DNA of 20,736 nucleotides, from positions 1 to 20,736 of IMG/VR virus record IMGVR_UViG_3300028197_000456; one strand, 5' to 3'. A program made the position numbers and the translations under genes. Positions 4,941-20,017 of the stretch are shown here, piece by piece. This stretch comes from a virus. The notes under the pieces were generated by a model. That model was not told the DNA's origin. It made no database searches and worked only from the letters and a program-made list of their open reading frames with translations. The stretch's first letter is position 1. Each line of letters begins with the position of its first letter.

Positions 4941-5723
4941 TTATGTTTTAATTGTGTCTAAAAGACGGTCAAAACTGCGACAAATCAATTCTTCAAAGCC
5001 TTCGCCCCATTTGCCATGTACTATCATATGAATTCTGTTTTCTGTTCCTCCGTGCCATACACAATGCTTTCTACCTATGTCAATAGCACGAGCTTCACCT
5101 GGTTCCCAAGGTATTAAACCTGCATCTTCTTGTGCAAATTCTACGCCAGGAGGATTACTTAAAGATATGTTAAATGCGGCCATGTTTCTTCTATCAAAAT
5201 CTTGGTGTGGTTGAATAAAACCACCTGGTTCCAATAGCATATATCGTACTCTTTGGAATTCTTTAATTGGAAAACTTTTTAGCCAGTCAACTGTAGCAGG
5301 ACAATCTTTTGCAATTTCTGTCCAAGTATAAGGAGGTATATTATCTGGAGTATCTATTCCTTCTTCTACATAATAATTTGAAGGTTGTGTTCTTTGTGCA
5401 GATTGTCCGTGTACTGCAATACTACTCCAACCAGGATGCATATCTCCTCTATGTTTAACAAATCTATTAAGAAACTTTTCTGCTTCTATTGTCATTTCTT
5501 TATAAGGAAGTGGCATATCTAAAAGTAAACTAGGACAATTACTTTCTTGTATAATCCATTTTGAATACTTCATTTTGGCACGATCATTAGTTTTCCAGTC
5601 ATTGAACTCATCACTAGGCATTTTTAAATCTTGATAATGTTCTTTTTGTTTACACCCAGTAATAAACTCTTTTACTTTTGTTAATTTACGTGAATACATT
5701 TCATCTTTTTTTATTTGTTCCAT
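4941..5723 (-). CDS. Aspartyl/asparaginyl beta-hydroxylase-like Fe(II)/2OG oxygenase
   Basis: A 260-residue protein whose C-terminal half carries the beta-hydroxylase signature: 'YMLLEPGGFIQPHQDFD' with H173-x-D175, 'FNISLSNPPG', 'WEPGEARAIDIGRKH' with H220, and then R230 in 'NRIHMIVHG'. That is the full H-x-D...H set plus the arginine expected to hold 2OG. The N-terminal 90 residues are charged and helical-looking, with no recognised domain. The ATG at 5721-5723 lies 13 bases inside the end of the 484-residue gene, so translation is probably coupled; the ribosome site is weak (AGG). The tight overlap suggests a shared pathway with that protein. The substrate is unknown. Confidence 0.8.
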   Translation of the reverse strand: MEQIKKDEMYSRKLTKVKEFITGCKQKEHYQDLKMPSDEFNDWKTNDRAKMKYSKWIIQESNCPSLLLDMPLPYKEMTIEAEKFLNRFVKHRGDMHPGWSSIAVHGQSAQRTQPSNYYVEEGIDTPDNIPPYTWTEIAKDCPATVDWLKSFPIKEFQRVRYMLLEPGGFIQPHQDFDRRNMAAFNISLSNPPGVEFAQEDAGLIPWEPGEARAIDIGRKHCVWHGGTENRIHMIVHGKWGEGFEELICRSFDRLLDTIKT

Positions 5724-7165
5724 TTTAATAACCTAAATATATTATCTCCTGATATTTCAGAAAATTCTCTCGTATCTGCATCATCTATCCAAAATGCTGA
5801 AGAGAATGTTCTGCTATTACAATATGTTCCTCTGTATAAATTTATTAATGCATTATTGTTGTTACTGTATTTATTTTTTATTTTACCAATTAAGTCGTTA
5901 GATAATTGCCATTTTTGCCTTAGGCTATAATAAAATGATAAAGGCATATAATGAAATATATTAGTAAAATGAAAGTATGTCATTAATTTAGGATCAACAG
6001 CTCTAAGAAAGTTATTATGTTCAGGTTGATTGTATAGATCAGTTTCCATTGTTGCAATACTCATTTCTTTAAGATCATTATTAACCCATTCAGAAAATCC
6101 TTCTTTGTTTAATTCATTTATTAATTCTTCAGTATGACTTAACTGTTGTATACCTTTATAATTGCCAGGTTTATTCTTTTTTTGATCTAATACAAATTCC
6201 GTATAACTAGTATTAGCATTCCATTCTTTGATTAATTTATCTGTATATTCAATAGCAAATTTAGATATATCGTATATTACAATCCTATCACCTGCTTTTA
6301 AACCTAATTTAAACGCATATACAAGTGTACTAATACCAGATGCAGGAGTTACTACTTGTTGAAACTTTCCATTCCAATCTGGCATTTGATGCATACGTGG
6401 TTTGATAAACTCATCAAGATTTTGAACATTCTCAGTATTAGCAACAAAACACGATTTTTCTTGATTAACTTCTTCTAAAAGATCTGCTCTGTGTCTAGGA
6501 GCATCTACTTCAACTTCTGCATAAGCATATTGTTTTGATATTCTACAATCTTTATCCCATGATACTATCTTTTGTTTAGATTCTATCAAAGCCTTTACCA
6601 TATTCCAACCTTCACCTAGTGGCCCTTGATATGTTTTTAAATTTTTTGTTATTGGTGGACAAATCCATAATGGAGTATATTGATCATGATGATTTTCTTC
6701 ACTGCGTACTGGCTCTAATGTTTCAAGTGGCAAATCCACATCTCTTTCTCCCCATTCAGGAAAACCTGCTTCTGCCCACCACGTAAGATTTATAAAAAAT
6801 GTTTGTGGATGTATTTCGTAGTAAGCTTCTTCTCTATCTAATATATGTCCAATAAAATTAACACCAGCATTTTTATTAAGAAACTTTTTAAAATTTAATA
6901 AAAAATCAGGTCCACGCAAAGTACAGCCTTGCTTAAGAACAAGTATACTTGAAAACCCATTATTGTATGCTTTTTTTAATAAATCATTTACAGTTTCATC
7001 AGCAAACTGAGTCGGAAAAAAATGAGCAAGTTCTACACTCCAATAATCAGTTAGATTTTTTGTATAGCCTTTTGCAAAGTCATCTTTAATATTATTATTA
7101 TATAACCAGCCAACTGTTATTTCTTTGTTGTGGTTTTTTATTTGCCAGAAATCATGCTCAAACAT
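5711..7165 (-). CDS. Unassigned 484-residue two-part protein
   Basis: I cannot name this family. The N-terminal part (about residues 15-210) has 'ILVLKQGCTLRGPDFLLNF', 'NFIGHILDREEAYYEIHPQ' and 'INLTWWAEAGFPEWGE'. This looks like a globular enzyme domain, reminiscent of glycosyltransferase-type sugar-binding folds, but I see no decisive motif. The C-terminal part (about residues 265-480) has 'VVTPASGISTLVYAFKLGLKAGDRIVIYDIS', resembling strand 1, helix and strand 2 of a Rossmann or SAM-binding fold ending in an acidic residue. The ATG at 7165 has GAGGT upstream, and a late-promoter-like CATAAATA overlaps the preceding stop codon. Its 3' end overlaps the oxygenase at 4941-5723. A modifying enzyme is likely; the reaction is not known. 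Confidence 0.7.
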   Translation of the reverse strand: MFEHDFWQIKNHNKEITVGWLYNNNIKDDFAKGYTKNLTDYWSVELAHFFPTQFADETVNDLLKKAYNNGFSSILVLKQGCTLRGPDFLLNFKKFLNKNAGVNFIGHILDREEAYYEIHPQTFFINLTWWAEAGFPEWGERDVDLPLETLEPVRSEENHHDQYTPLWICPPITKNLKTYQGPLGEGWNMVKALIESKQKIVSWDKDCRISKQYAYAEVEVDAPRHRADLLEEVNQEKSCFVANTENVQNLDEFIKPRMHQMPDWNGKFQQVVTPASGISTLVYAFKLGLKAGDRIVIYDISKFAIEYTDKLIKEWNANTSYTEFVLDQKKNKPGNYKGIQQLSHTEELINELNKEGFSEWVNNDLKEMSIATMETDLYNQPEHNNFLRAVDPKLMTYFHFTNIFHYMPLSFYYSLRQKWQLSNDLIGKIKNKYSNNNNALINLYRGTYCNSRTFSSAFWIDDADTREFSEISGDNIFRLLKWNK

Positions 7166-7850: not shown

Positions 7851-8495
7851 TTAATTGTCAATCACAAAGTTATTATTTTTTAGTTTTTCTACTACGTCTT
7901 CAAACTTTTCTCCTAAGACTTTAATTCTTAGGTATATTCTCTCTTTGGATATCTTTGGAACACCATGTACAATCATTCCATTGAAAAGTGTAGGGTGTTT
8001 ATTACTATAGTAATGGTTGTATTCTATATCTTCGTCAGTCCAACCTCTTTTTTCATAGTTCACATTACGTTCTGGTTCTTGACCTTCTCTACTATAAAAA
8101 CTAATTGGCTCACCTGCGTCTTCTGGCTCAATGGGAAACATTATACCACACCACATATAATGATCAGTATGTGGATGAAACGAATATCCTGGATCATAAT
8201 GTAATAAATCAATATCACGTGGATTAATTGGTGATTTAAAATTAAACATATCTACATATTTTTTTACTATAGGATATTCTAATAAATCTTTGCCTTCAGT
8301 TTTTTGAACTGCAATAGCATTCATGCCTTCGCGTCCTTTTCGTTTGGGATTAAATTCTCTTTTTTCTGGAGACAGATATTCCATATAATCACCAAATTGC
8401 ATTATGTTATGTTTGTGTTGATTGGTAAAATCTAGTAATTCAAGTCGGTCATAAGTAACCTCATCTATTGTACAATGATATTTTCCTAATTGCAT
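7851..8495 (-). CDS. Fe(II)/2OG-dependent oxygenase (prolyl hydroxylase-like)
   Basis: A 214-residue protein with 'HYDPGYSFHPHTDHYMWCGIMFP' providing H109-x-D111, 'GEPISFYSREGQ' strands, and 'FNGMIVHGVPKISKERIYLRI' providing H177 and R186. This is the complete H-x-D...H...R pattern of 2OG-Fe(II) oxygenases. It differs from the beta-hydroxylase-like proteins nearby in having the ordinary V-H-G-V distal strand. The ATG at 8495 has AAGGAA upstream. It lies 25 bases downstream of gp13 and upstream of dNMP kinase in one transcript. Many marine T4-like phages carry oxygenases of this general type; the substrate is not known. Confidence 0.82.
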   Translation of the reverse strand: MQLGKYHCTIDEVTYDRLELLDFTNQHKHNIMQFGDYMEYLSPEKREFNPKRKGREGMNAIAVQKTEGKDLLEYPIVKKYVDMFNFKSPINPRDIDLLHYDPGYSFHPHTDHYMWCGIMFPIEPEDAGEPISFYSREGQEPERNVNYEKRGWTDEDIEYNHYYSNKHPTLFNGMIVHGVPKISKERIYLRIKVLGEKFEDVVEKLKNNNFVIDN

Positions 8496-11290: not shown

Positions 11291-12493
11291 TTATTTTCCG
11301 GAAAAATGTTTGAAATTATCGTAATAAAGAGCTAGTGTTGCCCATATAGCATCAGGATAAAGATTAGTATATTTGTTTCCAGTCTTTTTATAGTATTCCC
11401 ATATAGTTTCACTCATGTCCATATCTGTATATTCTTTCCAAAAACTTGTATCGTCTCTACTAGATAATGCATAGTGATGTAATATATAATCACTGTTTTC
11501 TTTCCAAACTCTATTGACCATTCTGTTGTAAGTTTTGGCGTCATAGTCGCGTTTTAAGCACTCTACAAGCGTCGTAATACTATATTGTATCATAAACAAA
11601 GCATTTGATTCTAATGGGTCTATAAAGCCCTGACTGAGCCCTATAGCAACCGTATTGCCTGCCCATGGATTTTTTAACCAATTAGGATTCCATTTGATAT
11701 TACGTGGTTTTTTATCCATCCATGGAGTTAAATCTTTTGTATACTCTTTAAAACTTTCTAATGCATTTTCATCATTTAAGTGCTTATCGCTATAAACGTA
11801 ACCAGTACCAATACGTGACGTTAACCCAATTTTAAATTGCCAACCGTAATCACGTGCTATACTTCTAGTGTATGGAATATGTTCATCTAATTCAAATGGG
11901 CATACCCAAGCACTATTAACCAAATGTTTGTCATGTACTTTTACTTCAGTTTTATCGTTAACAAATTGTCTACGAAAACCTGTACAATCAATGTATAAGT
12001 CATAACCTTCTGGTCGTTCATCAAGTGTTTGAACAATGTGTTTTACATTCTTGCAATTTTCTTTTACTATACGTCCTGCATCTTCTGCGTGTAAGTGATA
12101 TGCTACTGCTCTCCAACCTTTAGCATCATATAGCTCATCGTTGATTTGATGTTTTGTAACTTCACCGGCTTTATATTTTTTATACCAATCTTCAAATACA
12201 TTATCATCATTAAACCAAAATGTAAATTTAAATTCTTCACCATCTGGCTTATCCCAACCTTGCTTTATGTTGCCATGTTTATATATAGCATCGCATTTTG
12301 ACATCCATGCGTCTTCTTGCATACCAAAACTATCAAAAAAAGTTTTGATCATAGGAAGTGTACTTTCACCTACGCCAACTATTGGTATATCACTACTTTC
12401 AATTAGTGTTATATCATAATCTGGAAAGTTATGTTCCATATATCCTGCGGCCCACCATCCTGTAGTTCCGCCTCCTATGATGCAAATCTTCAT
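11291..12493 (-). CDS. Tryptophan-halogenase-like FAD-dependent protein
   Basis: A 400-residue member of the flavin-dependent tryptophan halogenase family. It has the FAD-binding 'IIGGGTTGWWAA' (5-16), 'VGVGESTLP' (39-47), 'IYKHGNIKQGW' with K72 at the place of the catalytic lysine, 'LYIDCTGFRRQF' (166-177), 'RIGTGYVYSD' (227-236) and 'GFIDPLESNALF' (289-300). Two departures matter: the halogenase signature W-x-W-x-I-P reads W-Q-F-K-I-G (218-223), and the protein is about 100 residues shorter than PrnA or RebH. It may therefore halogenate an unusual substrate, perhaps peptide or indole, or act as a plain flavin monooxygenase. It also needs a flavin reductase, not seen here. It is the last gene of the transporter/rpiB operon, starting one base after the rpiB stop, with AGGAAA upstream. 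Confidence 0.82.
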   Translation of the reverse strand: MKICIIGGGTTGWWAAGYMEHNFPDYDITLIESSDIPIVGVGESTLPMIKTFFDSFGMQEDAWMSKCDAIYKHGNIKQGWDKPDGEEFKFTFWFNDDNVFEDWYKKYKAGEVTKHQINDELYDAKGWRAVAYHLHAEDAGRIVKENCKNVKHIVQTLDERPEGYDLYIDCTGFRRQFVNDKTEVKVHDKHLVNSAWVCPFELDEHIPYTRSIARDYGWQFKIGLTSRIGTGYVYSDKHLNDENALESFKEYTKDLTPWMDKKPRNIKWNPNWLKNPWAGNTVAIGLSQGFIDPLESNALFMIQYSITTLVECLKRDYDAKTYNRMVNRVWKENSDYILHHYALSSRDDTSFWKEYTDMDMSETIWEYYKKTGNKYTNLYPDAIWATLALYYDNFKHFSGK

Positions 12494-12494
12494 A

Positions 12495-12989
12495 TTAATA
12501 ATTTCCTATACTTTTTATTCTTGTTAGGTGTCTACCGCCTTCAAATTTAGTAGTAAAAAATGCTTCGCATATTTTCTTTGCTTGAGCAAGACTTGTAAAG
12601 TCTGCACCTAAACATAACACGTTAGCGTCATTATGTTTACGAGCCATTTCTGCTTCTTTAGCACTTCTACAAACTACAGATCTTATTAACGGATGCCTAT
12701 TAGTTGCTATTGACATCCCAAAACCAGATCCACATATAAGTATACCACTATTGTATACTTGCCATCCTGCTTTTACTTTATCTGGCGTTGCATAATCTTT
12801 TAAAAAAATTTCAACTACTCTAGGATAGTTAACTTTCTTTTTATCGTCATATGGTCCAATATCATGAAATAGATCTATATTAAATCTAGTTCCAATATCG
12901 CTATCAATTGGTATTAACCAATTTGATAATTGGTCTTTTAGTTTCATTCCTCTATGGTCTGATCCTATAGATAGACTAATTTGTTTCAT
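12495..12989 (-). CDS. rpiB: Ribose-5-phosphate isomerase B (RpiB/LacAB family)
   Basis: A 164-residue isomerase interconverting ribulose 5-phosphate and ribose 5-phosphate in the pentose phosphate pathway. It has 'IGSDHRGMKLKDQL' (8-21), 'YNSGILICGSGFGMSIATNR' (79-98) with the catalytic cysteine C86, 'KHNDANVLCLGAD' (118-130), and the C-terminal 'KFEGGRHLTRI'. All active-site motifs are intact. The frame can be opened at a GTG at 13052, but the ATG at 12987-12989 is preceded by AGGAGA at the right distance and matches the family start, so I use it. It lies 16 bases after the transporter stop. RpiB could feed ribose phosphate into nucleotides during infection, as other phage pentose-phosphate genes are thought to do. 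LacA/LacB-type substrates remain possible. Confidence 0.88.
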   Translation of the reverse strand: MKQISLSIGSDHRGMKLKDQLSNWLIPIDSDIGTRFNIDLFHDIGPYDDKKKVNYPRVVEIFLKDYATPDKVKAGWQVYNSGILICGSGFGMSIATNRHPLIRSVVCRSAKEAEMARKHNDANVLCLGADFTSLAQAKKICEAFFTTKFEGGRHLTRIKSIGNY

Positions 12990-13005
12990 AAAATCTCCTG
13001 TACGA

Positions 13006-13974
13006 TTATTTAGTAATTTGTCTTTCAAATTCCTGTAAACGTTTGTAAACACTAGCTAACTCAATAATTGTTGGCCATGCTTTTAGTATATATTGCATTG
13101 ATCCTTCTACTCTACCAAATGCTCTAATTATTTGTTGCATAACACCAAGTGTTACTACACCTGCTACAATAGCTGGTGCTAAAAATACATAAGCTGATAA
13201 AACATTTGCTTGTAAGTATGCTAATCTACCAATATTAAAATATAGATATCTTATATAACTTAAAAAGTGAATAGAACGAACATCTGTAAATAGTTCATCT
13301 ATTGTTTTAGGTCTTATAGTATTATCATCTTCTGCTATAACTAGTATTTTTCTGTAGGCCGCTTCTTTCTTTTGTAAGTCATATTCAACTCCTACTAAAC
13401 GTAGTAGCCATCCTAATCCTATTAAGAATATAGTTCCACCTAATGTCCATACTAGAGCACCTGTTACTAGTCCGTATTGCCAATCACCAAAAAAGAAAAT
13501 TGGTATACCAACTGATAATCCAAGTAGTATTGGAATGAATTGTATTAGTACCATAATAGCCTCTATAAGGCTTGTACCAAGACTTTCCATAATTCTTGTA
13601 AATTTAATCGTGTCTTCTTGAACACGTTGGGCCGCTCCTTCTATTTCACTAGCTTTATCATAAACACTATGGTACCATTCTACCATTGCACTTCTCCATC
13701 TAAATAAGAAGTGAGCTGTAAAGAAACTTACTGCTACTGCTAGAGCAACATAAATTCCTGCTAGTGTAATAAATGAGGCTAAACTAGCCCAATATTCTCC
13801 CATGGTTATTGCATTAGGAGTGGCTAGTGCTTTTTGTATCATATCATAGAATGTACCAAACCATTCGTTAATCTTAACATCAATTTTGACTTGAATCCAC
13901 AATGATGATAGAATGATTGTTGAACCTAGCCAAGCCCAAATCAACCATTTTCTAGTTGTAAAAAATCTAAACAT
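13006..13974 (-). CDS. SbmA/BacA-type inner-membrane peptide transporter
   Basis: A 322-residue membrane protein of the SbmA/BacA family, proton-driven importers of antimicrobial peptides and related compounds (microcins, proline-rich peptides, bleomycin; ABC-linked relatives take up cobalamin). Diagnostic words are 'IDVKINEWFGTFYDMIQKAL' (31-50), 'IEGAAQRVQEDT' (111-122), 'EAAYRK' (204-209), 'YLYFNIGRLAYLQANV' (243-258), 'LGVMQQIIRAFGRVEGSMQYIL' (276-297) and 'IIELASVYKRLQEFE' (303-317). Hydrophobic segments lie near 10-28, 64-88, 135-160, 168-193 and 262-280. E. coli SbmA has 406 residues; the phage protein begins about 80 residues in, so it lacks the first membrane helices. No ATPase domain is attached. 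The ATG has AAGGAA, and a late promoter lies 44 bases upstream. Confidence 0.88.
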   Translation of the reverse strand: MFRFFTTRKWLIWAWLGSTIILSSLWIQVKIDVKINEWFGTFYDMIQKALATPNAITMGEYWASLASFITLAGIYVALAVAVSFFTAHFLFRWRSAMVEWYHSVYDKASEIEGAAQRVQEDTIKFTRIMESLGTSLIEAIMVLIQFIPILLGLSVGIPIFFFGDWQYGLVTGALVWTLGGTIFLIGLGWLLRLVGVEYDLQKKEAAYRKILVIAEDDNTIRPKTIDELFTDVRSIHFLSYIRYLYFNIGRLAYLQANVLSAYVFLAPAIVAGVVTLGVMQQIIRAFGRVEGSMQYILKAWPTIIELASVYKRLQEFERQITK

Positions 13975-13991
13975 ATTTTTTCCTTATATTA

Positions 13992-14009
13992 GTACATCAC
14001 ATTATGTAC
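13992..14009 (-). repeat. Inverted repeat in the transporter operon leader
   Basis: GTACAT and ATGTAC pair over a six-base spacer (CACATT) between the late promoter at 14017-14025 and the transporter ATG at 13974. There is no U-tract. It is short, so it could be chance, but its position matches the leader hairpins of the sheath and tube genes. Confidence 0.45.
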
Positions 14010-14016
14010 ATATATA

Positions 14017-14025
14017 ATATTTATC
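14017..14025 (-). promoter_or_regulatory. Late promoter for the transporter/rpiB/halogenase operon
   Basis: The minus strand reads GATAAATAT, matching NATAAATA, 44 bases upstream of the transporter ATG in a 106-base divergent non-coding gap. The final base is T rather than the C seen in most other copies. Confidence 0.65.
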
Positions 14026-14049: not shown

Positions 14050-14058
14050 CATAAATAC
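14050..14058 (+). promoter_or_regulatory. T4-type late promoter for gp14-gp15
   Basis: The plus strand reads CATAAATAC, 22 bases upstream of the gp14 ATG, with AAGGAAAA as ribosome site between. It is back to back with the minus-strand late promoter at 14017-14025. Confidence 0.75.
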
Positions 14059-14080: not shown

Positions 14081-15151
14081 ATGCCACGTTTTACACTATA
14101 CAAGCCTTATAAAGGTAACGATTACAAATTCATGGACAGAACTATTCGAGAACAGTTCGATATAGGCGGTACAGCTATACACGTTCACAAGTATTTGGGT
14201 CCACAACCTCAACAAGGCAACAATGATCCTAGTGAGCCAAACTACGGCAGTGGTATGGAAGTAGATAATATAACAAACGAAGAAATAAATCCAGAAGGTA
14301 TGATTGATGAAACAAATATTCAAGACTTACTGTTTATGGAAAATAGGGATCGTAAATATGATCCTGATATTTTTGATCTTCGTGGAGTATATAATGTTAG
14401 TGACAATGACTTTGATTTAACTCAATTTGGACTATTCTTAACCAACGATACTTTGTTTATAAGTTTTCATATCAATGATATGGTAGAAAAACTAGGTAGA
14501 AGATTAATGCCCGGTGATGTTATTGAATTACCTCATTTAAGAGATGAACTTTTATTAAGCAACGACAGAGATGCTATTAATAAATTTTATGTAGTTCAAG
14601 ATGCCGCTAGGGGCAGTGAAGGATTCTCACAAACTTGGTATCCACACATTTGGAGAATCAAAGTAGCACCATTAACAGATACACAAGAATACAAAGATAT
14701 ACTTGGTAGTGCTAACGACCCAGATAGCCTTAAAAATAAAGTAAGTGCTTATAAAACAGAACTTAATATTAGTAATGCTATTGTAAAAAGTGCTGAAGAA
14801 GCAGATCCATTAGGTTTACCACTTGCTGAACATTTGTTTGGGCAAGAAGAAACTAACAATGAGTACAATCACGGAGAAGCTTTACAACAAGGTGACCAGT
14901 TTCCAGGAAATCCTAAAGAGGGAGAATATTTTATTAGAACAGACTTTACTCCTAATAGACTATTTGTAAGACGTGGAAGCAAATGGCATAGATTATATGA
15001 CAATGTTACTGAACAAACTTGGAGTGATAGAACTTATAATGCTAGTAGCTTTATTAACAATCAGGCTACAACAATTATTGACGATCAGGAGTTTCCAGAA
15101 CGTCAGCCTCTCAGCCAAGTTATTAAACCAAAAAGTGATTTCAAAAAATGA
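14081..15151 (+). CDS. gp14: Neck protein (T4 gp14-like)
   Basis: A 356-residue head-completion/neck protein. It shows the marine T4-like gp14 pattern: 'KFMDRTIREQFDIGGTAIHVHKYLGP' (key residues 17-41), 'IQDLLFMENRDRKYDPDIFDLRGVY' (80-104), 'FGLFLTNDTLFISFHINDMVEKLGRRLMPGDVIELPHLRDE' across 116-156, and 'FYVVQDAARGSEGFSQTWYPHIWRIK' (169-194). T4 gp14 has 256 residues; here residues 274-307 form a small extra motif ('FPGNPKEGEYFIRTD' then 'RLFVRRGSKWHRLYD') that resembles the repeats of the sheath insertion. The stop overlaps the gp15 start as ATGA, giving coupled translation. Confidence 0.85.
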   Translation: MPRFTLYKPYKGNDYKFMDRTIREQFDIGGTAIHVHKYLGPQPQQGNNDPSEPNYGSGMEVDNITNEEINPEGMIDETNIQDLLFMENRDRKYDPDIFDLRGVYNVSDNDFDLTQFGLFLTNDTLFISFHINDMVEKLGRRLMPGDVIELPHLRDELLLSNDRDAINKFYVVQDAARGSEGFSQTWYPHIWRIKVAPLTDTQEYKDILGSANDPDSLKNKVSAYKTELNISNAIVKSAEEADPLGLPLAEHLFGQEETNNEYNHGEALQQGDQFPGNPKEGEYFIRTDFTPNRLFVRRGSKWHRLYDNVTEQTWSDRTYNASSFINNQATTIIDDQEFPERQPLSQVIKPKSDFKK

Positions 15152-17686: not shown

Positions 17687-18479
17687 TGATAATTTTCTCT
17701 GTTAAATATTTGTGTGTTTTTGGTCCAGGATGTGTTTGATCTCTAGCCAAGTCTATCATTTCTTCTTGTGTGTAATATATTGATTTAATATCTTTTGGCT
17801 CGTAATCATAAAACCAATGTTTTCGTCTTTCATTAGGTTGTAGTATAAAATACTTTGAATTTGGAAATGTTTGTTTTAATGCTAGTTCGAACATCTTAAA
17901 TATTTTACCATTACTGTTTTTAAAAGTTTCTCTTACCTCTTTTATTATTTTCTTATCTTTTTCTTTTGGTATCCAATAACGCATAAGCCAATTAGTATCA
18001 TTTATACCCCAGAAGTCATTTAATATAATATACTTTGGATCTAAATCTGTCAAGTCAAATAACTTATCTGCCATATCGGTAAGAGTATCAAAGTCACTTA
18101 AATTAAAATGATCTAAACCAAGTTCTTTTGAAACTAAATGTGGTATTGATTGTTCATATGGTAATCCTGTACCTAGTAATAAACTTGATCCTGCAAATAA
18201 TATTCCTACATTGGTTAAATCATCTGGACCTCTATATCCATGTTTATTCCATGTATATTCAAAGTCTAATTTTGGATCGTTATCCCAATCAAGTTCTTGT
18301 ATAGCATCATGTGTAAAATGATCTAATCCACCTTTACCTACATTACACTTGTTTCCTGTATCATGCCTTCCATAATACTTTATACTAGTATTTGGTTCTT
18401 TTATTTGCTTTTCAGGTCTTAGTGTTTGTTTATAATAATATCGTGGATCTTGTTTATCTGGAAAGTCTTTTTCTATCAT
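17670..18479 (-). CDS. SGNH/GDSL hydrolase-like protein
   Basis: A 269-residue protein with the block order of SGNH hydrolases: 'NKHGYRGPDDL' (78-88), block I 'ILFAGSSLLLGTGLPYEQSIPHL' with the nucleophile candidate S98/S99, a central 'YIILNDFWGINDTNW' (150-164), and block V 'DQTHPGPKTH' with the D247/H250 pair. Family knowledge: these remove or transfer acyl or acetyl groups, often on polysaccharides or lipids. There is no signal peptide, so it acts in the cytoplasm or on a phage product. It overlaps the upstream oxygenase by ATGA and the downstream sulfotransferase-like gene by 17 bases. That is one tightly coupled unit that suggests surface-glycan or small-molecule tailoring. Confidence 0.68.
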   Translation of the reverse strand: MIEKDFPDKQDPRYYYKQTLRPEKQIKEPNTSIKYYGRHDTGNKCNVGKGGLDHFTHDAIQELDWDNDPKLDFEYTWNKHGYRGPDDLTNVGILFAGSSLLLGTGLPYEQSIPHLVSKELGLDHFNLSDFDTLTDMADKLFDLTDLDPKYIILNDFWGINDTNWLMRYWIPKEKDKKIIKEVRETFKNSNGKIFKMFELALKQTFPNSKYFILQPNERRKHWFYDYEPKDIKSIYYTQEEMIDLARDQTHPGPKTHKYLTEKIINELSR

Positions 18480-19429
18480 ACTTTTATAATTCTGTTAGGA
18501 TCTGGGTTATCAATCATATGTTGTACTTTATCACTTACAAAGCCTGTAAATTGAAATGTTACTCTTGGAGTAAATCCAAAGTTGGCTGTACCATGTGGCA
18601 TATTACACCAATCGTAAGTTATACAAGTACCTGCTTTATATCCTTGATGGTAAGTGTTACCAAACTGCCATACATGACCATAATCCCAATCTTGTAAATG
18701 AACTAGGAATCTTCTTAATTTTAAAGGATTCTTATCTGCACCTGCATCAGTCCATATTTTACGCCAACCTGGTCTTGCATATCTCATTTGTTGATCAATG
18801 TGTATAGGAGTAACTTGTCCTAATTTTTGTATATGCATTCTTGACTGATGTACTTCTACTTCTAATGAGTCAATCATTCGTAATAATATTTCATACTCTG
18901 GTGCAGGATTACGTTGAGCATAATAATTCTCTTCACCTTCTTTAAATCTACTTCTTACAATCATATCATGATACATACTACTTACATCTTCTTTACCAGA
19001 TGCATTTAGAACGTCTTGTATCTCTCCGTCATGTAAGTCTTTGTCTTGTTTGCTTAAATTTCTATTTCTATAGTTTCCTATAGTCATTTCTTTTGAATGT
19101 TCTACTGCATAGTTAACTGCTGGTTGAAAATCTCCTTCAAATCTACAAGGTATTACAAAGGTTTCTTCATTAGGATCGCCAAATGGATCAAAGTGCCAAT
19201 TAGCACGTAATTTATTATGTTCCCATCTACTTGGAACACCATCTACTTTAAAGATGTTATCCATCTTTTTATGTTCTTCCATTTGTTGATCGCTATACAT
19301 TACTTTTTCGTATGACTCGTCTTGTTGAGTTACACCTTCTTGTTTTGTATGATCTGCTTTTTTAACTGCATCAACTAAATCGTCAATTTTTTCACCACTA
19401 TAATAATTTTTATCTGTCTTTTCTTTCAT
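18476..19429 (-). CDS. Fe(II)/2OG-type oxygenase with N-terminal extension
   Basis: A 317-residue protein. The C-terminal half holds the iron-binding fold: 'IHIDQQMRY' (H210-x-D212), 'LRRFLVHLQDWDYGHVWQFGNTYHQGYKAGTC' strands, 'DWCNMPHGTANFGFTPRVTFQFTG' with H279 and R289, the usual ten-residue spacing. The N-terminal 190 residues are charged and poorly recognisable ('KVMYSDQQMEEHKKMDN', 'GVPSRWEHNKLRANWHFDPFGDP'). It lies directly after the oxygenase at 19430-20017 with no gap, so the two are made together. The substrate is unknown. Confidence 0.75.
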   Translation of the reverse strand: MKEKTDKNYYSGEKIDDLVDAVKKADHTKQEGVTQQDESYEKVMYSDQQMEEHKKMDNIFKVDGVPSRWEHNKLRANWHFDPFGDPNEETFVIPCRFEGDFQPAVNYAVEHSKEMTIGNYRNRNLSKQDKDLHDGEIQDVLNASGKEDVSSMYHDMIVRSRFKEGEENYYAQRNPAPEYEILLRMIDSLEVEVHQSRMHIQKLGQVTPIHIDQQMRYARPGWRKIWTDAGADKNPLKLRRFLVHLQDWDYGHVWQFGNTYHQGYKAGTCITYDWCNMPHGTANFGFTPRVTFQFTGFVSDKVQHMIDNPDPNRIIKV

Positions 19430-20017
19430 TTATCTTTCCTTACAGTTTGGTAATGAATTTATAATTGTTTTAAGATTATCTTCTGTTAAATATAAACTCA
19501 TTAGTATGTGATATATTCCACCTTCCATAGCAAAACTGCCATGTTGCTTACGAGTATTTAATACATACGGAACACCTGGCTTAAATTCTACACGTTTGGT
19601 ATCGTATAAAAAATTCCATTGATGTATTTCTGTTTTGTTAAGTGGTATAAAAATTCTAATTTGTGGATTAAATCTAAATGCGTCTCTGTGCATAGTAAAA
19701 AAGCTACCAGATTCCAATTTTACTGCTCTACATCTAGCTAGGTTTGACCATTGTTTAAAAAAACTATATAAAGATGGACATTTAAGTAAATTTTCGTTTA
19801 CAGGTTGATCTGCATCATGTTTATTTTTATCATCAAGCCCAAGTCCTTTTTCTGGTCCTGTAAGGTTAATTCCTTGTTTACCATTTGGTCCTTGTTCCCA
19901 ATCTAATTTTTCTAATTCGCTGATAACCTCATTGCTGTCTAGTTTTTGTGATAACTCAATTACATCACCGTAACTATTCAACAGGGTCAATAGGTTTATT
20001 GGATTTGTATCTTTCAT
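19430..20017 (-). CDS. Aspartyl/asparaginyl beta-hydroxylase-like Fe(II)/2OG oxygenase
   Basis: A 195-residue protein with 'ESGSFFTMHRDAFRF' giving H110-x-D112, 'QIRIFIPLNK', 'FKPGVPYVLNTRKQHGSFA' giving H159, and 'GGIYHILMSLYL' at 167-178. As in the oxygenase at 1582-2250, the strand after the distal histidine has Y-H where many homologues have R-x-H. These two proteins also share the 'NTRK-x-H' word and are likely closer relatives of each other than of the other three oxygenases. The start codon at 20017 lies 44 bases inside the end of the 97-residue gene. Confidence 0.75.
   Translation of the reverse strand: MKDTNPINLLTLLNSYGDVIELSQKLDSNEVISELEKLDWEQGPNGKQGINLTGPEKGLGLDDKNKHDADQPVNENLLKCPSLYSFFKQWSNLARCRAVKLESGSFFTMHRDAFRFNPQIRIFIPLNKTEIHQWNFLYDTKRVEFKPGVPYVLNTRKQHGSFAMEGGIYHILMSLYLTEDNLKTIINSLPNCKER

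Follow-up and report, generated by a model that had tools for sequence, protein, structure and literature searches.

A host-like SbmA/BacA-family transporter gene behind a T4-type late promoter box in the structural region of ocean phages

Results

The 20,736-base virus record IMGVR_UViG_3300028197_000456, which was analyzed over its whole length and is referred to below as the window, contains a T4-like structural region in which we find sbmA, a gene for an inner-membrane peptide transporter of the SbmA/BacA family, located behind a T4-type late promoter box and followed on the same strand by rpiB (ribose-5-phosphate isomerase B family) and hal (flavin-dependent halogenase family). The reading that we favor, and to which we give about an even chance of being right, is that sbmA encodes a late-made, proton-coupled importer that was taken from marine alphaproteobacteria and feeds peptides into virion protein synthesis. 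An earlier note on this DNA, made from the letters without database searches, had described three tightly spaced genes behind a T4-type late promoter, the first of them for an SbmA/BacA transporter. This description holds up in the Pfam and PHROG searches, the box position (Table 1), the conserved mechanism residues and the open frames reported here; the genes lie on the minus strand, with gaps of 16 bases between sbmA and rpiB (12990–13005) and a single base between rpiB and hal (12494).

The predicted SbmA protein matches PF05992 at E 1.6e-134 (448.8 bits, model positions 2–314 of 315) and aligns by phmmer with E. coli SbmA (PDB 7p34, E 7.1e-85), its residues 4–320 falling on residues 77–393. 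Its 322 amino acids (aa) have no nucleotide-binding domain, the Pfam matches being SbmA_BacA and ABC_membrane_2 only. According to excerpts of a 2026 study (PMC13316013), E. coli SbmA carries a ladder of glutamates (E193, E203, E269, E276, E287 and E378), loss of which inactivates or severely impairs the protein, and a gate tyrosine (Y368). The phage counterparts in the phmmer alignment are E120, E130, E197, E204, E215, E305 and Y295, and every one of these residues is invariant in 20 phage SbmA sequences. The same excerpts describe TM0, a pair of helices, for the characterized members E. coli SbmA and BacA; as TM0 is missing here, we name the phage protein a short SbmA-like peptide transporter (SLiPT)-like protein of the SbmA/BacA Pfam family. 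The earlier note would have counted decay of the transporter in relatives against its proposal, and no decay was seen in the 80 relatives read. SbmA relatives are encoded in 189 of 190 pattern-matching IMG/VR stretches, and the best 80 of the 189, which are 83–88% identical and form our phage SbmA set, are all open frames of 321–331 aa, one of them ending at a contig end and three having non-ATG starts. The ratio of nonsynonymous to synonymous change (dN/dS) of sbmA is 0.04–0.11 in 10 comparisons, in several of which synonymous sites are near saturation. Phage SbmA looks like a working transporter.

The sbmA box is one of nine ATAAATA sites in the window (one on the plus and eight on the minus strand), seven of which begin 26–84 nt upstream of open reading frame (ORF) starts (23 starts examined). 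The starts with such a box are those of four structural genes (tail tube, sheath, and two that we label neck13 and neck14, names coined in this analysis), of SbmA, and of the ORFs at 5711–7165 and 1582–2250. Among 25 distinct relatives of the intergenic region between sbmA and the divergent neck14 gene, the neck14 box is exact in all 25 (3.7 expected from shuffles) and the SbmA box in 13 (2.6 expected, with a maximum of 8 in 200 shuffles). A looser form, [AC]TAA[AG]TA, stands near the place of the sbmA box in the window and 18 relatives, stacked by eye without formal alignment. Neither RpiB nor Hal has an exact box within 120 nt, so one late transcript for the three genes is the natural reading. 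By the box that it has in common with the structural genes, sbmA would be a T4-type late gene, presumably expressed together with them.

PHROG searches identified a tail tube, a sheath, a head-tail adaptor, a virion protein and a sheath/sheath-stabilizer family gene in the structural region of the window, and megablast with the whole window against 50,697 phage records gave no match. Among the best 80 SbmA loci, 64 have neck14, 8 lie at a second site marked by clpS and a membrane-gene module (see below), and 8 are at neither. A neck14 search, whose query alignment was built from sbmA-bearing phages, returned 488 relatives; among the best 80, leaving out 7 with too little upstream sequence, sbmA adjoins neck14 in 66 of 73 usable loci. 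Six of the seven loci without adjacent sbmA share unrelated ORFs of ∼390 aa, and the seventh (L357) has three intervening membrane genes. By these gene neighborhoods sbmA is kept at one neck site across a broad, large group of ocean phages. The ∼390-aa ORFs in the place of sbmA (two each in L346, L348, L349, L352 and L355; one and a cut one in L350) contain the motif GSTLLQRY and are sulfotransferase-like by eye; Pfam on one of them gave no significant family. Elsewhere in the structural region of the window, positions 4941–5723 encode a protein of the aspartyl/asparaginyl beta-hydroxylase family (PF05118), and the ORFs at 1582–2250, 7851–8495, 18476–19429 and 19430–20017 resemble such oxygenases by eye, Pfam finding nothing in them.

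The closest cellular relatives of phage SbmA (the best 80 of 524 in the genome collection) are 82–88% identical and come from marine bacteria, among them SAR11 and SAR116; nearly all are labeled alphaproteobacteria, and one is a Litoricola. No matches to other window proteins were found around these 80 cellular sbmA loci, which therefore do not look like phage pieces. Of 99 genomes (0.7–1.6 Mb each) in the family of Candidatus Pelagibacter ubique HTCC9565, 84 encode PF05992. On a tree built from 49 phage and 80 cell proteins the cell/phage label has to change six times, and at least three of these changes are forced by strongly supported branches. Our trees were quick ones, with Shimodaira–Hasegawa-like approximate likelihood ratio (SH-aLRT) support only, many open forks and an unsure position for the window itself, so we claim the forced number of changes only; a second tree dropped every second host row. 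All eight loci at the second site (L010, L011, L012, L014, L016, L027, L037 and L048) fall in one branch (support 97) with 27 cell rows, Pelagibacteraceae. Taken with their other location in the genome, this placement points to a likely, though unproven, acquisition of their own.

sbmA also looks to have been exchanged on its own. The synonymous distance between the window and its closest relative, L005, is 0.95 for sbmA, far above that of rpiB (0.18) and hal (0.36), so that the three genes do not always travel together; the distances for neck14 and neck13 are 0.22 and 0.45. It looks as if sbmA alone, and not rpiB and hal, was exchanged relative to L005. Against the more distant relative L022, SbmA is 87% identical, neck13 73%, neck14 75% and gp15 66%. 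With a close host homologue, phage hallmark genes around it and purifying selection, sbmA looks like a host-derived viral auxiliary gene, the transfer having probably run from host to phage.

A second genome site and a phage membrane module

In the second group, which consists of jumbo phages, all eight loci have the order three membrane genes, clpS, sbmA. The module encodes a MotA/TolQ/ExbB-like protein, in which PF01618 was found in 6 of 14 records (28–35 bits), a TolR-like protein, whose aspartate in the predicted membrane helix is invariant in 13 sequences, and a third membrane protein. An AlphaFold model of the TolR-like protein (mean predicted local distance difference test score, pLDDT, 72) has a beta-rich C-terminal domain, and its best PDB match is 2qng, of unknown function (E 2.2e-4, TM-score 0.39). 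We therefore base the TolR/ExbD assignment on two features, the invariant aspartate of the membrane helix and the ExbB-like protein encoded next to it. PDB profile searches with the ExbB-like and TolR-like proteins returned nothing significant, Pfam found no significant family in the TolR-like proteins tested, and PHROGs gave no family for 10 proteins (8 encoded in marine modules, 2 in phage 16-3).

The module also occurs between neck14 and sbmA (L022, L029 and L079), directly before sbmA without clpS (L421–L423; in L428 with small extra ORFs between), and, with the positions swapped, directly after sbmA (L437, where SbmA is 34% identical only). In the best 80 of 234 TolR-like loci, some of them near-copies, SbmA lies within 3 kb in 12 and at 5–7 kb in 7 more, and ClpS within 2 kb downstream in 20. 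A search of the 99 Pelagibacter-family genomes, run without a positive control, found no TolR-like gene. Among 14 records that bear SbmA, of which several are fragments, 9 encode ClpP and 8 encode ClpS. G009 (242 kb) and G010 (328 kb), both of the second group, encode a portal, a major head protein and a terminase (PHROGs); here and below, the records G005, G006, G008, G009 and G012 were read without their last bases.

Further genes were noted alongside. The T4-like jumbo contig G010 (L234–L250) encodes elongation factor G, IF3, ribosomal protein L11 and DnaK, further ClpX, ClpP, a ClpA-like protein and a trypsin-like/PDZ protease, as well as Glu/Leu/Phe/Val-type (ELFV) and saccharopine-type dehydrogenases. 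A full cytochrome b gene (PF00033, PF00032) lies 1.3 kb downstream of sbmA at L010:12285–13574, on a 65-kb contig that is possibly misassembled. TolR-like relatives are found in 27 annotated rhizobial phage records: in Rhizobium phage RHph_N3_13 a PF01618 protein precedes the TolR-like protein (L442:5518–6564), and in Rhizobium phage 16-3 p040 is TolR-like (L441:7034–7570), with the trypsin-like protease p036 just upstream.

Two alternatives go beyond a lone importer. In one, which is rather improbable, marine phages would have assembled, in several arrangements, an envelope peptide-uptake and recycling line of their own from the proton-driven module, SbmA and ClpS/ClpP, with SbmA providing the inner-membrane passage and ClpS/ClpP the handling inside; the phage of the window would then have retained only sbmA of this line, at the neck site. 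A similarly improbable variant puts food second and sees in SbmA and the MotA/TolQ/ExbB-like and TolR-like proteins that adjoin it in other phages a proton-driven envelope machine, which would energize uptake across the envelope, keep other phages out or regulate membrane energy. This variant draws on the placement of the module near sbmA in all eight second-group loci and in L022/L029, L079, L421–L423, L428 and L437, on the 19 of 80 TolR-like loci with SbmA (12 of them within 3 kb; a raw count without an adjacency background), on the presence of SbmA somewhere in 9 of 16 larger module-bearing records, and on the invariant TolR-like aspartate. It is opposed by the 61 of 80 TolR-like loci without SbmA in the available stretch, by the 7 of 16 larger module-bearing records without SbmA, by G005 (221 kb), which has sbmA and no module, and by G012, in which the two are ∼155 kb apart.

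Other uses of the transporter

Staying with the transporter itself, clearance of toxic or signaling peptides, with SbmA importing cationic peptides before they harm the envelope ahead of lysis, is an unlikely use. It is import by SbmA that renders cells susceptible to peptides acting in the cytoplasm, which speaks against such a use. The gene is moreover near-universal in free-living SAR11 (the 84 of 99 genomes above), suggesting housekeeping uptake, while on the other side SbmA/BacA proteins do import antimicrobial peptides (excerpts of PMC13316013 and PMC10128002).

Import of a cofactor, for instance the cobalamin carried by Rv1819c, a related ABC protein of mycobacteria, is less probable still. 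Large and small ribonucleotide reductase subunits are encoded in SbmA-bearing phages (by Pfam both in G005 and G009 and the large one in G010; by blastp as pairs in G007, G010, G011 and G012), and as this class needs no B12, the case for B12 import is weakened. What favors it is that Rv1819c is a cobalamin transporter with functional overlap with SbmA (excerpts of PMC13316013).

rpiB and hal as probable cargo

The earlier note had also proposed a functional link between the three genes, for instance in handling a halogenated peptide or indole, and this was not supported by the comparison of gene orders. Our synteny count covers 52 loci spanning the site in 16 clusters at 90% nucleotide identity, in which sbmA is present by selection, and leaves out 12 of the 64 neck-linked SbmA loci that have no right-hand border. 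A halogenase gene follows sbmA in 7 of the 16 clusters (24 loci) and rpiB in 2 (8 loci); rpiB also follows sbmA in L013, L015 and L017, fragments outside the cluster count. Ten of 35 RpiB relatives lie beside SbmA and 25 are without SbmA in the available stretch, 12 halogenase relatives divide into 7 beside SbmA, 4 not and 1 cut, and one contig has sbmA and rpiB ∼41 kb apart. The order sbmA-rpiB-hal is kept in the window, L004–L009 and L015; L002 and L003 show it with a gene added. By their distribution rpiB and hal look like independent optional cargo beside sbmA.

A joint SbmA-RpiB-halogenase system is therefore very improbable, and we rejected it as the principal explanation on synteny and synonymous distance: the repeated three-gene order and the single late box favor it, and the 2 of 16 and 7 of 16 clusters, the exchange of sbmA alone and the 25 RpiB relatives without SbmA count against it. 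The earlier note had held that genes scattered in related phages and never together would make a joint system unlikely; scattered they are, though sometimes together as well.

RpiB has phmmer matches to the solved RpiB enzymes 4em8 and 3ph3, with which its ICGSGFGMS, ARKHNDAN and GGRHLTR align, conserved Cys, His and Arg stretches that we take to be the active site. For its start, the ORF lister offers an earlier GTG overlapping sbmA, and the alignments of close relatives begin at the ATG. The solved relatives of Hal include RebH, PrnA and VirX1 (E 2.3e-36), the last presumably a cyanophage enzyme. We take GxGxxG to be the flavin adenine dinucleotide (FAD) motif, K72 and E295 to be catalytic and WxWxIP to be a halogenase motif; GGGTTG is kept in Hal, and K72 and E295 are invariant in 9 aligned sequences. 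Hal has WQFKIG where RebH has WTWKIP, so we call it a halogenase-family protein of putative activity; it is also ∼100–150 residues shorter than most solved relatives. As PHROG 2928 and VirX1 attest, phage halogenases are already known, and 'tryptophan halogenase', 'phage' and 'auxiliary metabolic genes' co-occur in published papers.

Next to the halogenase gene, five clusters have a 113–123-aa protein of membrane type by eye (L002:4730–5101, L021:10978–11325, L055:2869–3216, L071:10980–11327 and L079:11766–12107), in one of which Pfam found no family. At L079:9539–13315 the cassette after sbmA holds two halogenase-family genes and an FAD-dependent oxidoreductase (PF01266).

Host contamination or misassembly almost certainly does not account for sbmA and is refuted for the neck-linked group, for against the host-like character of the gene and an Acinetobacter phage MD-2021a record with bacterial genes around sbmA stand the structural genes that flank it in the window and many contigs, and the portal, major head protein and terminase (PHROGs) of G005, G009 and G010. 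The Acinetobacter record, CAKLQH020000002.1 (L450), has gatB, tdcB and pepO around sbmA in the 13 kb viewed and therefore appears mislabeled; two MD-2021a contigs are among the four records with an SbmA match in the annotated phage collection.

Table 1. Positions of the genes, promoter boxes and membrane module discussed in the text (window coordinates unless a locus is given)
Feature	Coordinates	Strand	Remarks
sbmA: SbmA/BacA-family (SLiPT) inner-membrane peptide transporter, short form without TM0	13006..13974	-	322 aa; PF05992
rpiB: ribose-5-phosphate isomerase B family	12495..12989	-	164 aa from ATG; PF02502 E 4.5e-37
hal: flavin-dependent (tryptophan) halogenase family, short	11291..12493	-	400 aa; PF04820 E 1e-76; PHROG 2928 E 1.5e-86
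Late box ATAAATA (GATAAATAT) of sbmA	14018..14024	-	begins 50 nt upstream of sbmA
Late box ATAAATA (CATAAATAC) of divergent neck14 gene	14051..14057	+	exact in relatives
neck14-like virion structural gene, usual neighbor of sbmA	14081..15151	+	PHROG 11591 virion structural protein
neck13-like head-tail adaptor, other border of the variable sbmA segment	8521..9261	-	PHROG 211 head-tail adaptor
Three-gene membrane module	L037:7807-9650; L022:8353-9909; L079:5972-7588; L421:7547-9124; L437:7562-9100		often beside clpS or sbmA

Discussion

SAR11-type cells live on dilute organic matter, and an intact phage importer of a kind common in SAR11 suggests that these phages keep peptide uptake running while building particles. 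In the mechanism that we favor, sbmA would be transcribed late from its own T4-type late promoter, alongside the virion proteins. A dimer open to the periplasm would take up a peptide, and protons passing along the glutamate ladder would help it to turn inward, as in E. coli SbmA. Peptide uptake could thereby be kept or raised once the phage has stopped host gene expression, and peptides from the medium and the periplasm would yield amino acids for virion protein synthesis. The ClpP, ClpX and ClpS that several sbmA-bearing phages bring with them may provide a link to proteolysis, and RpiB, whose pentose phosphates could go into nucleotides, would ride with the halogenase as independent cargo in the same late transcript. 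We judge, at a confidence of about one half, that peptide import feeding translation suits these circumstances better than a role in detoxification, in the uptake of a cofactor or in halogen chemistry. Of the uses proposed in the earlier note, nutrient or peptide import during virion production is thus the one retained as the best reading, and the handling of a halogenated peptide or indole is not.

Several observations weigh against peptide import into virion synthesis or narrow its reach. Because SbmA is promiscuous, its sequence is equally compatible with detoxification or with some other role, and a literature search of open-licence full texts found no paper on SbmA with SAR11. The N-terminal ∼73 residues bearing TM0 are missing in phage SbmA, the examined host proteins being equally short, and the sbmA-side box is exact in no more than 13 of 25 relatives. 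The three label changes that the tree forces could also reflect a single gain with two losses, so the direction of transfer is not proven. As to the genome site, the query built from sbmA-bearing phages and the restriction to the best 80 of 488 mean that the figure of 66 in 73 cannot be read as an unbiased frequency, and L023, L024, L026, L028, L031, L078, L080 and L081 show neither the neck nor the ClpS/module site. ClpS also occurs in phages of the collection without SbmA, e.g. Pseudomonas phage PA5oct. A search for the TolR-like gene of the module had no success in G005 and G006, which are closely related to the window, and no such gene was recognized among the ORFs of the window, so the module association is a lead for the window and not a finding.

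If peptide import is indeed what sbmA provides, the list of what ocean phages may contribute to SAR11/SAR116-type cells grows by the import of peptides across the inner membrane. It becomes testable whether lytic infection draws on imported peptides in addition to recycled host material, and whether peptide uptake in the sea shifts with infection. A further outcome is an undescribed membrane module of phages (MotA/ExbB-like plus TolR-like), which is open to laboratory study in the cultured Rhizobium phages that carry relatives of it.

The earlier note knew of no described phage role for SbmA/BacA, in agreement with our literature search, in which the available portions of open-licence full texts yielded no paper describing a phage SbmA. 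The pelagimyophages (PMC7029224) are comparable as T4-like SAR11 phages with envelope-related genes, among them, in excerpts of that paper, a curli-secretion operon; SbmA, BacA and halogenase are absent from its main text. The halogenase-family protein of the window belongs to the same flavin-halogenase family as VirX1 (PDB 6qgm) and the PHROG 2928 phage halogenases, but has 400 aa compared with 531. With E. coli SbmA (PDB 7p34, 9g3d and 9rqj) the phage protein shares the full-length Pfam family, the six ladder glutamates and the gate tyrosine, whereas the phage (321–331 aa) and examined marine host proteins lack the TM0-bearing N-terminus, and the transport activity of the phage protein is predicted from its sequence. 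SbmA of SAR11/SAR116 has the same short form and the 82–88% identity given above (best 80 of 524), and what sets the phage copy apart is its T4-type late box and its place among structural genes. A parallel in kind is psbA of cyanophages, likewise a host-derived auxiliary gene for a conserved host membrane protein, with single-gene exchange between lineages, although a photosystem is served there and a transporter is encoded here.

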